Positions 13,575 through 27,515 of a stretch of DNA of 39,405 nt are shown here, in pieces; the stretch's first letter is position 1; every line of letters begins with the position of its first letter. The translations under genes and the position numbers were made by a program. The notes below the pieces were generated by a model. It was not told the origin of the DNA and made no database searches. It worked only from the letters and a program-made list of their open reading frames with translations. The DNA is from an uncultured Oscillospiraceae bacterium (GTDB lineage Bacteria; Bacillota; Clostridia; Oscillospirales; Oscillospiraceae), in NCBI GenBank assembly GCA_947625845.1, contig CANQQB010000015.1, positions 1 to 39,405 on the forward strand, written 5' to 3'.

Positions 13575-15242
13575 ATGGACGAGAACGCGAAAAACTTCAT
13601 ACTGGACTTTGTGACGGAGGACATCGGCCCCGGAGGCCGGTTCGAGGGCATGCAGGTGCACACCCGCTTCCCGCCGGAGCCCAACGGCTACCTGCACATC
13701 GGCCACTGCAAGGCCCTGTGCATCGACTTCGGCACGGCGGAGCGCTTCGGCGGCATCACCAACCTGCGCATGGACGACACCAACCCCGCCAAGGAGGACA
13801 CCGAGTACGTGGACGCCATCAAGGAGGACATCCACTGGCTGGGCTTCGACTGGGGGGACCGGTTCTTCTACGGCAGCGACTACTTTGAAAAGACCTACGA
13901 GCTGGCGGAGGGCCTCATTAAAAAGGGTCTGGCCTACGTCTGCGAGCTGACGCCGGAGCAGTTCCGGGAGTATCGCGGCGACGTGGGTACCCCTGCCCGG
14001 AGTCCCTGGCGGGACAGGCCTATCGAGGAGAGCCTGGACCTTTTCCACCGCATGCGGGACGGGGAATTTCCTGAGGGCAAGTATACGCTGCGGGCCAAGA
14101 TCGACCTGGCCAGCGGCAACTTCAACATGCGCGACCCGGTGCTGTACCGCATCCGGTATATCGAGCACCACCGGCAGGGGACCAAATGGTGCGTGTTCCC
14201 CATGTACGACTTCGCTCACCCCATCCAGGACGCGCTGGAGGGCATCACCCACAGCCTGTGTTCCCTGGAATATGAGGACCACCGGCCTCTGTACGACTGG
14301 GTCATCCAGAACACCGACGTGCCCAGCAAGCCCCGGCAGATCGAGTTTTCCCGCCTGGGCATCAACCACACCGTCATGAGCAAGCGCAAGCTGCGCAAGC
14401 TGGTGGAGGAACACTATGTCTCCGGCTGGGACGACCCCCGTATGCCCACCCTGTGCGGCCTGCGCCGCCGGGGCTATACCCCCACGTCCATTCGGACCTT
14501 CATCAACCGCATCGGCGTGAGCAAGGTCACCAGCACCGTGGAATACTTCTTCCTGGAGCACTGTCTGCGGGAGGAGCTGAACCTCACCGCTCCCCGGCGT
14601 ATGGCGGTGCTGCGGCCGGTAAAGCTGGTCATTACCAACTACCCGGAGGGACAGACCGAGACGTTCGAGGTGGAGAACAACAACCTGGACGCGTCCGCCG
14701 GTACCCGGCCGGTGAGCTTCAGCCGGGAGCTGTGGATCGAGAGCGAGGACTTTCTGCCCGCGCCGGTGCCTAAGTATAAAAGGCTCTATCCAGACGGGCC
14801 AGAGTGCCGTTTAAAGGGCGCCTATCTCATCAAATGCACCGGCTATGAGACGGACGACGAGGGCAGCGTCACCGTCTTCGCCGAGTACGACCCCGACACC
14901 CGGGGCGGCGACCCCGCCGACGGGCGCAAGGTCAAGGGCGGCACCATCCACTGGGTGAACGCCGCCGACTGCGTGGACGCGGAGGTCCGGCTGTACGACG
15001 ACCTGTTCGCCGATCCGGAGCCGGACGCGGCGGAGAATTTCCTGGACTGCCTGAACCCCGCCTCCCTGGAGGTGCTCACCGGCTGCAAGGCGGAGCGGGC
15101 TCTGGAGAATGCCAAGGCCCCGGAGAGCTTCCAGTTTTTGCGCACCGGGTACTTCGCCGTGGACAACAAGGACTCCGCACCCGGCCATCTGGTGTTCAAC
15201 CGCTCCGTGGCGTTGAAGGACGGCTTCAAGCCCAAGGCGTAA
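13575..15242 (+). CDS. glnS: Glutamine--tRNA ligase
   Basis: This 555-residue class I aminoacyl-tRNA synthetase charges tRNA-Gln directly. The HIGH motif is HIGH at residues 41-44 (PPEPNGYLHIGHCKA) and the KMSKS-type loop is VMSKRK at 267-272. The C-terminal beta-barrel anticodon-binding region spans about residue 340 to the end (RRMAVLRPVKLVITNYPEG). The RFPPEPNGYLHIGH form and the ICTHSL-type region (EGITHSLCSLEYEDHRPLYDW) are GlnRS-type, not GluRS-type. Most Firmicutes instead make Gln-tRNA with GatCAB, so this gene was probably acquired in the lineage. It is a monocistronic unit with its own promoter and terminator. Confidence 0.95.
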   Translation: MDENAKNFILDFVTEDIGPGGRFEGMQVHTRFPPEPNGYLHIGHCKALCIDFGTAERFGGITNLRMDDTNPAKEDTEYVDAIKEDIHWLGFDWGDRFFYGSDYFEKTYELAEGLIKKGLAYVCELTPEQFREYRGDVGTPARSPWRDRPIEESLDLFHRMRDGEFPEGKYTLRAKIDLASGNFNMRDPVLYRIRYIEHHRQGTKWCVFPMYDFAHPIQDALEGITHSLCSLEYEDHRPLYDWVIQNTDVPSKPRQIEFSRLGINHTVMSKRKLRKLVEEHYVSGWDDPRMPTLCGLRRRGYTPTSIRTFINRIGVSKVTSTVEYFFLEHCLREELNLTAPRRMAVLRPVKLVITNYPEGQTETFEVENNNLDASAGTRPVSFSRELWIESEDFLPAPVPKYKRLYPDGPECRLKGAYLIKCTGYETDDEGSVTVFAEYDPDTRGGDPADGRKVKGGTIHWVNAADCVDAEVRLYDDLFADPEPDAAENFLDCLNPASLEVLTGCKAERALENAKAPESFQFLRTGYFAVDNKDSAPGHLVFNRSVALKDGFKPKA

Positions 15243-15252
15243 TGAAAAACAG

Positions 15253-15287
15253 ACCGCGCGGGACTTGACAGACAAGTTCCGCGCGGT
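15253..15287 (+). terminator. Terminator of glnS
   Basis: A 15-bp stem (ACCGCGCGGGACTTG with CAAGTTCCGCGCGGT, one G-T wobble) has loop ACAGA and is followed by TTTAT. It starts 11 bases after the glnS stop. The -35 of the next promoter lies inside it. Confidence 0.8.
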
Positions 15288-15294
15288 TTATAAT
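15265..15294 (+). promoter_or_regulatory. Consensus promoter embedded in the glnS terminator
   Basis: A perfect TTGACA (15265-15270) and a perfect TATAAT (15289-15294) are 18 bases apart on the plus strand. No plus-strand gene follows for 1.5 kb; instead the predicted transcript runs antisense to a 27-codon ORF and ends at a strong terminator. That makes it the likely promoter of a small RNA. Confidence 0.6.
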
Positions 15295-15360
15295 AAGCAT
15301 ACAAAAGGGCGCTGTGACAAGCGGTCAGCCCGAGAAGATTGCGGTTTTAAAAGAGAACCG

Positions 15361-15444
15361 TCACCGTGCCGGGTGGCGGTTCGTCCTTCTTATCGTTAAC
15401 GTTAGCGTATATCTTCCGATATGTAACGTCAGCGTAATAGGCAT
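15361..15444 (-). CDS. 27-residue peptide, possible type I toxin-like ORF
   Basis: ATG at 15444 has GGGGGTG six bases upstream. The peptide alternates hydrophobic and polar residues (MPITLTLHIGRYTLTLTIRR) and ends NRHPAR, a beta-strand-like, strongly cationic pattern. The stop codon lies inside a 10-bp hairpin (15356-15381) followed by CTCTTTT. The predicted mRNA 5' leader (around 15473-15498) is complementary to its own 3' end (15307-15328), a feature known from type I toxin mRNAs. It lacks the hydrophobic span usual in such toxins, so the function is not established. It could also be a chance ORF inside a structured RNA of the other strand. Confidence 0.45.
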   Translation of the reverse strand: MPITLTLHIGRYTLTLTIRRTNRHPAR

Positions 15445-15518
15445 ACGCCTCACCCCCTTTTGAGAGGTGTGACTGACCGCCTGCCGCTTACAGCGCCCCG
15501 GTGCAAAGCACCGTGGAC

Positions 15519-15547
15519 AGGATACCATACAATGCCATAAAATGCAA
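15519..15547 (-). promoter_or_regulatory. Weak promoter candidate for the 27-codon ORF
   Basis: On the minus strand TTGCAT (15547-15542), a 17-base spacer and TATCCT (15524-15519) would start an mRNA near 15512. The first bases of that mRNA form a CGGTGC/GCACCG hairpin, which then leads into the complementary leader. The hexamers are only partial matches. Confidence 0.3.
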
Positions 15548-15549
15548 CA

Positions 15550-15584
15550 GCCCCCAGGCCGCGCCGCGGCCTGGGGGCATTTTT
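15550..15584 (+). terminator. Strong terminator of the antisense RNA
   Basis: GCCCCCAGGCC pairs perfectly with GGCCTGGGGGC across a GC-rich loop and is followed on the plus strand by ATTTTT. The T tract exists only in the plus direction. Confidence 0.8.
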
Positions 15585-16016
15585 CCGCTCAAATGAAAGT
15601 ACGCCGCGGGCGTCTTTCACTTTTGTGATTACGAACTGTAATATATCCGGCAAAATGAACAGGTTCTTCCATTCATTTCCACATCATTTTTCAATCCTTC
15701 CCACCCCCCGGCTGTTCCCCCGGTCCCGGGAAGCCGCGTTTTTCCGCGCTTTTTTCGACGGCCCGCTCTTTAAAGAAAGTTTAACATAATTCTTTACTCA
15801 TTTCTAATTCGGAATGTTATCGACATTTTCAACAGAGATTTCAACAGCCCTTCAGCCTTTACGCTGTCGTCCTTCGGGCCGCTTTTGGAAATTTCTTCAA
15901 ATTCTGCAAACGCGTCCAGCAACAAATAGTTTCAATTTTAGATTTAACATAACGCGGGAATTTTCACTTCCCCCGCGCCTGGCAAAGAACCGTCCGATGC
16001 AAATGCACACATGCCG
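15585..16016. other. Intergenic region between the small-RNA locus and radC
   Basis: This stretch is AT-richer than its surroundings. A hairpin around 15595-15616 (GAAAG...CTTTC arms) could terminate in either direction. On the minus strand 15794-15931 is open for 45 codons with protein-like composition (AEFEEISK, then KAEGLLKSLLKM), but it has no ribosome binding site and no ATG near its start; it may be a gene remnant. I see nothing else. Confidence 0.4.
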
Positions 16017-16718
16017 TCATAAGCACGACAGATAGCCGCTGTCCGCCATGGACACAAAGTCGTCGTCGCCTATCACGATGTGGTCCGTCAGGGTCACGCC
16101 CACCTCCGCCAGCACCTGGCGCACGTGGAGGGTGACGGCCACGTCCTCTTTGGAGGGTATGGCCAGGCCGCTGGTGTGGTTGTGGGCCAGAACAGCGTAG
16201 GTGGCGTTCTGGCTCAGGGCCAGCTGCACGATGCCCCGGATGTTCACGCCCACGGAGATGGTGCCGCCCCGGCCGACCTCCCGGCAGTCCAGCACCTTCA
16301 GCTTGGCGTCCATGCACACCATGTACATCCGCTCCTCCCGGAAGGTCAGAAACCGGGGCAGCAGATACCGGCCCACCGCGTCGCTGTCGTTCAGGACGGT
16401 GCCCGGACCGGCCTTGGATATGAAATACCGCCGGGCCGCCTCCGGCACAAGATGGATCAGCACCGCCGCGTTGTCCCCGATGCCCTCCACCGTTTTCAGC
16501 GCCTCCGGCGTGGCCTCGAACACCCCTTCCAGGCTGCCGAAGACCTCCAGCAGCCGGTGGGCGGTCACGTTGGTGTCCTTGCGGGGCTGGGCGTAAAATA
16601 ACAGAAGCTCCAAAACGCTGTGGTCCTCGAAGTTGTCCAGGCCGTAGCGCATGAAACGCTCCCGCATGCGCTCCCGGTGGTTGGCGTGGGGATTTTTCTC
16701 TCTGTCCTGCATGACCAT
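16017..16718 (-). CDS. radC: RadC family JAMM-domain protein
   Basis: This protein of about 233 residues matches the RadC family. The N-terminal helix-hairpin-helix-like region (ALKTVEGIGDNAAVLIHLVPE) precedes a C-terminal MPN/JAMM domain with the metal-binding motif AHNHTSGLAIPSKED. RadC was named for a repair phenotype, but its biochemical role is uncertain. I chose the ATG at 16718 because AAGGA lies eight bases upstream; an ATG at 16736 has no ribosome binding site. It is transcribed divergently from rodA. Confidence 0.92.
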   Translation of the reverse strand: MVMQDREKNPHANHRERMRERFMRYGLDNFEDHSVLELLLFYAQPRKDTNVTAHRLLEVFGSLEGVFEATPEALKTVEGIGDNAAVLIHLVPEAARRYFISKAGPGTVLNDSDAVGRYLLPRFLTFREERMYMVCMDAKLKVLDCREVGRGGTISVGVNIRGIVQLALSQNATYAVLAHNHTSGLAIPSKEDVAVTLHVRQVLAEVGVTLTDHIVIGDDDFVSMADSGYLSCL

Positions 16719-16755
16719 GATTCCGATCCTTAACATATTCTTAAAAAGCGGGCCG

Positions 16756-21165: not shown

Positions 21166-22440
21166 TCATGCCGTTGCTGGTAGCAGCTTGCCTTCCAGCG
21201 CGGCAAAGGATTTGGTTTGCTTCTTTTGCGTAACCGTATAATACACGTCCATTGTGATTTTAATGGTTGCGTGGCCCATAGTCTCTTGGATTAGCTTTAG
21301 GTTACTTTCATTCTCGCAGAGCCGGGTACAAAACGTGTGCCGGAGGATATGTGCGGAGATATGCGGCAATAGCTGTGGCTCTCGGTTCTCTGCCTCGGCC
21401 CTGGCTTGTTCGGCTTTGTTGTAATGTGCTACTATTGATTTTAGTATTGTGTTGACATTTGCGGGCGAAACAACTTCGCATTGTCTGTTTTGGAAAGCAA
21501 AATTAGTATAGCCGTCAATCGCGCCTTTGGTAAACCCGTGTTGCTTTTGGCGCTGATACTCTTTGATTAGGGCGTTTTTCACCGGCTCCAACATGGGAAT
21601 TTGCCGGACTGAATTATCGGTCTTTGGCGTATCGGCATGAAACCTATAATGCTTCGTCTCGTCCCGGCGCTTCATAACCGTGTGATTGACATACACATAG
21701 CCATTGACTAAATCCAAATCCTCCCAGCGCATACCAACGGCTTCACCAACACGGCAACCCGTCCCCAGCATAAACAGAAAGAGCGGGTACCAATGCTGAT
21801 ACTTTCTATTGGTCTGCACATACTCCATAAAAGCGGCTTGCTGTTCCTCAGTCAAAGCCTCTTTTTTTGTTTTCTGCCAGCCAATAGTCTTTTTCAATTC
21901 GGCCAAGACGCCATCGGTCGGATTTGTGCGGATATAACCGTCCCGGATAGCAACTCTAAAGACTGGATGCAAAACCGCATTGATAATCTCTATCGTGCTA
22001 GGTAAGAAATCCATGTCGTCATATAGACCATAATAAAGCCGTTGAATATCACTGTAATTAATGTCTGCAATCTTTTTTTGCCCTAAGTCATTGCGTATCG
22101 TGTGATTATAGTAGTAAGTATAATTTTCGCGTGTAGACTTCTTCCAGCCCTTTTTATTCGCGGCATACCTATCAAAGCAATCATTGAGTGTTAGCTTCTT
22201 GCCGGAGAAAGAATCAACTTTATCAAAAATATCTTGTTGTATTTCTTTCTCTAACACCTTCAGACATTTGCCCAACGGCTTGCCCTGTGGCGGTCTGTCG
22301 CTCTCTGTCAAAGTCCAGCTATATACGCTGCGCTTCACCCCCTTTGCATCAGTGTAGCGATATTCATACCGCCCATCTTTACGCTGATACTCGTTTGCTC
22401 CCAATTTGCGATGCTTCGCGTCCCGGCGTTCATTAGCCAT
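21166..22440 (-). CDS. int: Tyrosine recombinase / integrase
   Basis: This 424-residue protein integrates and, with a directionality factor, excises the element. An N-terminal arm-binding domain (GANEYQRKDGRYEYRYTDAKG, about residues 14-34) precedes a core-binding domain and a C-terminal catalytic domain. Catalytic residues are visible: Arg230 (GTGCRVGE), Lys273 (TPKT), His364 and Arg367 (HILRHTF), His390 (GHATIKIT) and nucleophile Tyr400 (MDVYYTV). The architecture is like Tn916-family integrases. The ribosome binding site is AAAGGA and a consensus-like promoter lies 50 bases upstream. The gene is complete and reads toward attL. Confidence 0.95.
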   Translation of the reverse strand: MANERRDAKHRKLGANEYQRKDGRYEYRYTDAKGVKRSVYSWTLTESDRPPQGKPLGKCLKVLEKEIQQDIFDKVDSFSGKKLTLNDCFDRYAANKKGWKKSTRENYTYYYNHTIRNDLGQKKIADINYSDIQRLYYGLYDDMDFLPSTIEIINAVLHPVFRVAIRDGYIRTNPTDGVLAELKKTIGWQKTKKEALTEEQQAAFMEYVQTNRKYQHWYPLFLFMLGTGCRVGEAVGMRWEDLDLVNGYVYVNHTVMKRRDETKHYRFHADTPKTDNSVRQIPMLEPVKNALIKEYQRQKQHGFTKGAIDGYTNFAFQNRQCEVVSPANVNTILKSIVAHYNKAEQARAEAENREPQLLPHISAHILRHTFCTRLCENESNLKLIQETMGHATIKITMDVYYTVTQKKQTKSFAALEGKLLPATA

Positions 22441-26958: not shown

Positions 26959-27515
26959 GACTTTTATCGCCTTTCCGAATTTTAATTAGTAGTTTAGTCT
27001 TTCAAGATATTTGTCAATGTTTGTATCGTTTCCGTTTATCACCTAATCTTTCTCATATCCATACAAACGCAAAAATGGCTATGCAATTGCCATAGCTGGC
27101 ATCACATAGCCCGTATAACTATCAACAACCGCACCTATCTTATAATAGGACTACACAAAACTAGAGCAACTGTTTGTGCGGCTTACTCGGCCAAATACGA
27201 TTCAAATTTACGCTTCTTACTGTTGACTATGTTGTTATATCAATTTTTTGCCTTTTCTGGTTTACTGTATTATACCACAAAACACCCCGTTTTGTCAAGG
27301 AAAACTTTAGGAATCTATAAAAATTATATCCGTCATTTGTCTGCTGCTGCAAATAATCTATACATTACACATACCTGGTCATATGTAAAGTATTTGAGCG
27401 TTCTATTGTTCCTGCTTATATTATAATATACGCCGCGCACCTTCAAAAATCCTTTATTTTTTCTAAAAAAGTTATTAGATTATTGAGGCGCTATCAGAAT
27501 ATAATTTTATAGAAC
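26959..27515. other. AT-rich intergenic region of about 590 bases
   Basis: No convincing gene is present; short frames on both strands lack ribosome binding sites. A small hairpin GCTATG/CATAGC lies near 27081. On the plus strand TTGTCA (27293-27298) followed 18 bases later by TATAAA could start an RNA that would end at the terminator at 27516-27548, giving about 220 nt, but the match is weak. The promoter of the 403-residue gene should lie near 26970-27060, yet no clear pair of hexamers is seen. Confidence 0.35.

Follow-up and report, generated by a model that had tools for sequence, protein, structure and literature searches.

A candidate type I toxin-antitoxin family of Oscillospirales with a predicted beta-hairpin peptide on an exchangeable RNA chassis

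A short reading frame facing a consensus promoter

Does a 27-codon reading frame that lies opposite a perfect consensus promoter encode the toxin of a type I toxin-antitoxin system, a harmless micropeptide under antisense control, or nothing beyond the stem of a structured repeat? We asked this of a locus in a 39,405-nucleotide stretch of DNA (hereafter the window), which is contig C15 of the 2.5-Mb, 134-contig genome of an uncultured Oscillospiraceae bacterium. The neighbours of the locus are a gene for a class I (E and Q) tRNA synthetase (13575-15242; PF00749) on one side and, on the other, a RadC-like gene on the minus strand (16017-16736; PF04002). A preliminary description had listed a perfect TTGACA-18-TATAAT promoter and a strong terminator on the plus strand and, opposite them, a reading frame with a ribosome binding site, a hairpin at its stop codon and mutually complementary flanks; all of these elements are present (Table 1). 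The ATG of the reading frame, at 15444 on the minus strand, is preceded by AAAGGGGGTGAG. An upstream in-frame ATG at 15528 would extend the product to 55 amino acids, and conservation across the family starts only at the ATG that follows the Shine-Dalgarno sequence.

From these and the comparative data below, we put at roughly three in four the probability that the locus is a chromosomal type I toxin-antitoxin system with a new, beta-hairpin class of toxin carried on an exchangeable RNA chassis, its transcripts, toxicity and mode of inhibition being those that we infer from sequence. According to this model, a weak promoter on the minus strand would drive an mRNA of about 212 nt for a cationic beta-hairpin peptide of 25-30 amino acids. 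This mRNA would be born translationally silent: a local hairpin would hold its Shine-Dalgarno sequence, and two long-range helices, ending in the mRNA's own terminator, would zip its 5' and 3' ends together. The opposing promoter, a strong one, would give rise to an antisense RNA of about 90 nt, reaching from the 3' arm of the mRNA to the hairpin at the toxin stop codon, which would pair with the mRNA 3' end, could replace the mRNA 5' arm with its own 5' half, and would block translation, bring about degradation, or both. The chassis would be modular, the same RNA parts serving the beta-peptide in some loci and holin-like transmembrane peptides in others.

Table 1 Features of the locus, in window coordinates, with the evidence for each.
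Feature	Position	Strand	Basis or remark
27-codon ORF, proposed toxin peptide, MPITLTLHIGRYTLTLTIRRTNRHPAR	15361-15444	-	homologues under purifying selection
Shine-Dalgarno core GGGGG, 8 nt 5' of the ATG	15453-15457	-	
Shine-Dalgarno-sequestering hairpin CACCTCTCAAAAGGGGGTG	15451-15469	-	fold predictions, window and family
Proposed mRNA promoter TTGCAT-17-TATCCT with TG extension, 7/12 consensus bases	15519-15547	-	conserved in alignment by eye
Hairpin GGTGCTTTGCACC at the 5' end of the proposed mRNA, whose start is predicted at ~15512	15500-15512	-	alignment, fold
Closing stem, 5' arm (pairs with 15307-15315)	15490-15498	-	swap test, fold
Closing stem, 3' arm, then TTTT; proposed mRNA terminator	15307-15315	-	alignment, swap test, fold
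Second long-range helix, 5' arm GGCGGTCAGTC (pairs with 15321-15331)	15471-15481	-	swap test, fold
Second long-range helix, 3' arm GGGCTGACCGC	15321-15331	-	swap test, fold
Stop-codon hairpin: ORF end on minus strand, proposed antisense intrinsic terminator on plus strand	15355-15382	.	13 consensus pairs
Antisense promoter TTGACA-18-TATAAT, predicted start ~15301	15265-15294	+	pattern counts, family conservation
Proposed antisense (antitoxin) RNA, ~90 nt	15301-15392	+	covariance model match
Strong terminator, 13-pair hairpin and ATTTTT, outside the conserved unit	15550-15584	+	would stop a read-through antisense transcript

The peptide and its family

A search of related genomes for the ORF and both complementary arms with a covariance model had been proposed as a check on the locus; searches of related genomes recovered a family of related elements. 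The peptide consensus is approximately MRITLHIGxFTVTIIVKSRNRHSAK, and distant members carry inserts such as KRTHKKNRHSAK. For the analysis of coding selection, seven of the 62 ORFs listed were dropped (five with alternative upstream starts, the L109 entry, which has an insertion, and L078, whose end is short) and identical ORF DNAs were removed, leaving 53 distinct ORFs. Among these, entropy at codon positions 1, 2 and 3 was 0.53, 0.47 and 1.23, and dN/dS for the ORF body was 0.25 overall and 0.18, 0.03, 0.11 and 0.13 within subfamilies A (14 ORFs), B (8), C (23) and D (8). Subfamilies A and B had been collected by DNA searches, not peptide searches, with the ORF recognised afterwards by its motif. 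Judged by these substitution patterns, the ORF is a real gene under purifying selection. The preliminary description had named loss of the frame in homologues as grounds for abandoning its reading; instead the frame is kept, with dN/dS well below 1. A spurious ORF is ruled out by the same low values. The last codons differ from the rest of the ORF because the stop hairpin holds them: here dN/dS was 0.32-0.78 within subfamilies and, by eye, replacements of Asn by Ser or by Asp are matched by compensating changes across the hairpin. The loops of this hairpin also look mutually inverted among copies (GGGCAG versus CTGCCC, for example in L038, L041, L043 and L045), and the inversion alters the C-terminal residues of the peptide (PAR, PGR, RAG, SAK).

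Selection on the frame bears on the proposal that the locus is a mobile RNA or REP-like repeat that works as an RNA, or as a DNA hairpin, and in which the ORF would be incidental or would serve only to keep the structure. Such an element would account for the multiple intergenic copies, the strong structure and the covariation described below. It would also suit the joining of foreign sequence at the stop hairpin: copies L050, L059 and L132 (G010, G011) and L051 (G017) break into foreign sequence in or near the hairpin loop, which is an insertion-sequence-like targeting of the hairpin. The foreign sequence at the break is identical in L050, L059 and L132, and the breaks lie near contig ends. 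However, third-position bias and a low dN/dS in the ORF body, including in the subfamilies gathered by DNA search, together with a strong and conserved Shine-Dalgarno site, speak against this, and constraint from RNA structure fits the last codons only. We consider an origin of this kind very improbable.

The peptide had previously been described as beta-patterned rather than a membrane helix, and structure prediction points the same way. As the window peptide is shorter than the length limit of the AlphaFold2 tool, the model was made on L109, a 30-amino-acid homologue, using 16 sequences; it places strands at residues 2-7 and 10-15, with a pTM of 0.30 and a mean pLDDT of 73.9 (90 and 80 in the first two ten-residue blocks, 52 in the tail). 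Membrane type I toxins are described as alpha-helical membrane peptides in a review (PMC8309996). In place of the alpha-helical transmembrane domain of Fst-, Hok- or TxpA-like toxins, the L109 model has a beta-hairpin, and the toxin candidate is predicted to be a cationic beta-hairpin peptide of 25-30 amino acids. Four family peptides gave nothing above cut-off in Pfam, NCBIfam, PHROGs or PADLOC, the sole NCBIfam match below cut-off being to ArfC (12.6 bits, cut-off 32), and a known protein or structure was rejected as an explanation on the ground that none scored above cut-off. Six family peptide strings had no occurrence in the literature searched, and among the matches listed from the type I toxin-antitoxin literature the family appeared in no title or abstract opening.

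By sequence similarity, the locus belongs to a multi-copy family found in Oscillospirales, in other Bacillota and on phage contigs. In its own genome, a DNA search gave four places at E below 1e-5: one is the window copy, and the remaining three are on contig C30, where one copy lacks the ORF start. When the same kind of search was applied to 60 genomes, 35 of them from the genus, matches were found in 20, own genome included, all within the genus; a peptide match at E <= 0.05 was present in 20 of the 35 genus genomes, the match in G023 being partial. More widely, a peptide profile reached 28 of 394 genomes of an order sample at E <= 0.01 (18 at E <= 1e-4, own included), where five weak matches sit inside ORFs of more than 700 amino acids. 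In a class sample of 391 genomes it reached two, its own and another with a 14-residue partial match, and in a phylum sample 5 of 398, own included, with 10 matches in one genome. In this distant phylum member, G1017, four of the ten matched peptides (L150, L153, L156, L158-L164) have an internal stop, and the set is expanded and partly decaying. A DNA pattern search found 16 stretches in contigs, all of them Oscillospiraceae MAGs. The copy inspected in Vescimonas fastidiosa is intergenic among annotated genes, and the gene table, itself incomplete, lists no gene beneath it. The 861-kb plasmid record of strain MM35 of this species holds 5 DNA matches.

Thirteen IMG/VR loci were matched by the peptide profile and two unannotated gut phage records by DNA search; tblastn with one family peptide against a phage collection gave no match. 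For three of the 13, the neighbouring genes were annotated. In L104 the element has the tape measure gene on one side and, on the other, a protein of unknown function encoded after the major tail protein; in L108 it is flanked by a tail protein and by an XkdN-like protein; and in L100 it comes ahead of a holin gene. Such placements would be expected of autonomous cargo.

Two predicted opposing RNAs

The 212-nt mRNA predicted for the window folds at z = -8.2, and none of 200 shuffles folded as well. We then compared the duplexes formed by the 5' and 3' arms of each element with those formed after swapping arms between elements. Across 52 elements (the set leaves out five alternative starts, L078, identical ORFs and two cut-off or N-holding elements, and keeps L109), the mean was -49.8 kcal/mol for own arms versus -42.8 kcal/mol for swapped ones; none of 2000 permutations did as well, and the total lay about 12 standard deviations out. 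The own arm beat the average foreign arm in 48 of the 52 elements and was no better than it in four (L040, L056, L069 and L119). By this measure the 5' and 3' flanks of the mRNA co-evolve, and its structure is selected. In the 84 of 86 elements that were folded, the Shine-Dalgarno sequence was in a local hairpin in every case, compared with 42 of 150 control ORFs. At least 8 long-range pairs were predicted in 81 of the 84; since about half of the control ORFs (74 of 150) reach a similar count, only the swap test serves as evidence on this point. By prediction, the toxin mRNA is silenced by its own structure.

Promoters were scored downstream in 85 and upstream in 81 of the 86 elements. For the mRNA, a promoter of at least 10/12 was found in 35 of 81 elements versus 7 of 245 control windows, the other 46 elements having none that good, and the window's own mRNA promoter is weak by this score. 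The conserved unit ends, in an alignment judged by eye, at about 15547, at the -35 box of this promoter. The antisense promoter is stronger and more general: a score of at least 11/12 facing the ORF was reached in 80 of 85 elements versus 10 of 258 control windows, and L069, whose ORF end is also altered, alone scored below 10. The exact TTGACA-18-TATAAT pattern occurs twice in the window against 0 expected from 100 shuffles, and nine times in the whole genome, which has no copy of the reversed pattern.

A covariance model of the antisense module, based on an alignment of 47 sequences (A4), the window copy among them, matched the window at 15299-15396 with 90.9 bits, which defines a conserved module of about 98 nt. 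Six of the paired positions of its stop hairpin show double-sided changes. Judging from this conservation, the putative antisense gene appears to be itself selected. Its predicted start coincides with the predicted mRNA terminator, and a terminator scan lists the stop-codon hairpin as terminator-like on the plus strand.

Where the antisense RNA ends is the point on which we depart from the preliminary description, which had it run for about 280 nt across the entire ORF to 15584. The terminator there is strong, and in the window copy the T-rich stretch that follows the stop hairpin is weak (CCTTCTTA), both of which would favour the longer RNA. Against it, the far terminator is, by eye, not conserved and lies outside the conserved unit, which led us to reject the 280-nt RNA as the main form; the conserved module stops at the stop hairpin; and the antisense-only copies inspected mostly keep the stretch from promoter to hairpin, with a few ORF codons (by eye). 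In 34 of 52 elements a plus-strand run of at least four T follows the hairpin, several divergent modules have it followed by CTTTTT or ATTTTT, and six aligned holin-like modules, described below, continue with CTTTTT, CTTTTTT or CTTCTT. The recurrence of hairpin and T-rich stretch across the family places the antisense 3' end at about 15385-15395, not at 15584. A single RNA spanning the ORF is in our judgement unlikely, and the antisense RNA probably measures about 90 nt, covering only the 3' end of the ORF.

Comparison with known RNAs gave no family for this region. Rfam had nothing at E <= 1 in 15200-15620, and the only gathering match in the window, a tRNA at 139-212, leaves no known structured RNA as a candidate. 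Among ten related loci at E <= 0.5, there were matches to mir-3116 (L196), mir-192 (L237) and atoC RNA (L079), all below the gathering score and probably due to chance; the last is full-length, between the antisense module at L079:1556-1662 (-) and atoC RNA, with 32 bits (gathering 50) and E 0.017.

One chassis for two kinds of peptide

When the covariance model was run against the 35 genus genomes, own included, matches were found in 25 at E <= 0.01. There were 61 hits at E <= 1e-3, of which 36 carry a full beta-peptide. The other 25 were sorted by eye into five intact holin-like loci, one holin-like orphan, 13 broken beta-type modules, four that were undecidable (contig end, insert or N run) and two spurious hits. 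The five holin-like ORFs are MTYSELFEFCLVIIGIISLFIQAKKK (three, in the own genome), MSTMEVLTLFLVLIGICNLFIQIYKKK and MVSFAELFQYSLVIIGVIGLVIGVCKKK. We also inspected 11 weaker full-length hits (eight with E 0.001-0.01 and three up to E ~3), eight of which have comparable hydrophobic ORFs ending in lysines; of the others, L241 has a different, less hydrophobic 32-amino-acid ORF, L212 lacks an ORF and L238 appears truncated. The holin-like ORFs mostly end in KKK, and the own genome holds at least five such loci (L195, L196, L197 and L211, on contigs C7, C74, C17 and C38).

The holin-like loci (L195, L196, L197, L201, L207, two at L211, L234-L237, L239 and L240) resemble the beta-type loci in their kind of 5' leader, Shine-Dalgarno hairpin, stop hairpin, 3' arm and antisense promoter, and differ from them in encoding a hydrophobic, helix-like peptide with a lysine end. 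The likeness was close between the beta-type L128 and the holin-like L196: 87 of 101 positions are identical in the 5'UTR (z 16) and 75 of 85 in the 3'UTR and antisense promoter (z 11), whereas the ORFs align no better than shuffled sequence (z 0.3). In L129 the leader carries other sequence, its 5'UTR likeness to holin-like loci is low (z 1.5-1.9), and the 3' part is common. Four holin-like peptides, three from chassis loci and one from L130, had no Pfam match above cut-off, and one showed an NCBIfam likeness to PepG1 of 12.7 bits, below the cut-off of 70. It is from their form, hydrophobic with a lysine tail, not from a family match, that we infer the holin-like ORFs to be toxins. That the beta-peptide fills the slot of such a peptide is the strongest argument for its being a toxin as well.

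At L130:1239-1319, a hydrophobic ORF of 26 amino acids, MTVEETILLLNLLAVVIFGVITITKK, follows directly on three tandem beta-type copies, the first of them truncated; it has a strong Shine-Dalgarno site, and a consensus promoter faces its 3' end.

In the 13 broken beta-type modules of the 35 genus genomes the antisense half persists although, by eye, the ORF is lost or broken, and 12 of them retain the antisense promoter. Conversely, two of 38 full peptides were without a module; each of these two lies at a contig end, where its ORF continues into other sequence. The 13 are not independent, because tandem copies are among them, and mutational bias could give a similar asymmetry between antisense-only and toxin-only copies. 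The pattern recalls zor/orz of E. coli, for which antitoxin-only orz loci, orphan antisense copies without a toxin as here, are reported (PMC11264685).

These copies also help to weigh the possibility that the peptide is a regulated but non-toxic factor, acting for example at the membrane, ribosome or envelope, and that the likeness to toxin-antitoxin systems is only regulatory. Coding selection alone is no proof of toxicity, and the predicted fold is unlike that of known membrane toxins. Yet patchy presence, tandem and phage-contig copies, a chassis shared with holin-like ORFs and antisense-only copies all suit a toxin better than a housekeeping factor, and we regard a non-toxic role as a minor possibility. 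The type I toxin-antitoxin-like reading, already put forward in the preliminary description, is supported by arm co-evolution, Shine-Dalgarno sequestration and the strong antisense promoter, and also fits the multi-copy and phage-contig occurrence, the holin-like chassis and the excess of antisense-only copies.

Several features have counterparts in known systems. Ibs/Sib of E. coli occurs in several intergenic copies, each with a very short ORF that an antisense RNA faces, and in hok/sok of E. coli the mRNA ends are folded together; as far as Rfam tells (none at E <= 1), the sequences of both are unrelated to this locus. Closer in arrangement is Fst/RNA II (par of pAD1), which (PMC7472228) shares with our locus a short toxin ORF, opposing promoters, a Shine-Dalgarno sequence sequestered in a stem-loop, a toxin mRNA with its 5' end tied up, chromosomal and mobile-element copies, and an antisense RNA that meets the mRNA 3' end and ends in a hairpin. 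In contrast to the transmembrane helix of Fst, a beta-hairpin is predicted for the family peptide; our locus also differs in that the last codons of the ORF contain the proposed antisense terminator and in that a separate terminator is proposed for the toxin mRNA, at its opposite end. Antisense pairing in par uses direct repeats, DRa and DRb, that span the start codon. CD2517.1-RCd8 of C. difficile (PMC6563280) is similar in belonging to Clostridia and in having a small unannotated ORF, prophage copies and an overlapping convergent antisense RNA. The C. difficile pairs, likened here by description alone, differ in their hydrophobic toxins with a lysine-rich C terminus (PMC6563280).

A more far-reaching proposal, which we regard as evenly balanced, is that these loci form an unnamed, widespread superfamily of Bacillota type I toxin-antitoxin systems, in which one chassis carries either beta-hairpin ORFs, a new structural class, or ORFs for holin-like helices. 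The last codons (NRH/KKN or KKK tails, giving hairpin and T-run) would be shaped by the antitoxin terminator, and orphan antisense copies would act as antidotes against incoming phage copies. Charged C-terminal tails would then be explained, in sequence, as the antisense terminator read backwards. A beta-hairpin class of toxin would point to a further mechanism by which a peptide of 25 residues can damage the cell, and a chassis that exchanges its ORF would open genomes to mining for toxins via the RNA: the covariance model holds only the last codons of the ORF and nevertheless found the holin-like loci. In uncultured Oscillospiraceae and on phage contigs, such loci may help to exclude phages or to maintain prophages.

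Finally, some observations concern the setting. A Tn916-type integrase (Pfam Integrase_DNA and Phage_integrase) lies at 21166-22440 (-) of the window, part of which may therefore be an integrated element. The second perfect TTGACA-18-TATAAT of the window is at 27269-27298 (-), about 310 bases upstream of a 403-amino-acid minus-strand ORF (26958-25747) without a Pfam match at E <= 1e-5. Copies, one of them truncated, were seen by eye directly downstream of apparently the same synthetase gene end in G000, G032, G034 and G017 (window 15243-15560, L038, L039 and L051), and this shared position in four genomes of the genus suggests that the site has been held for some time.
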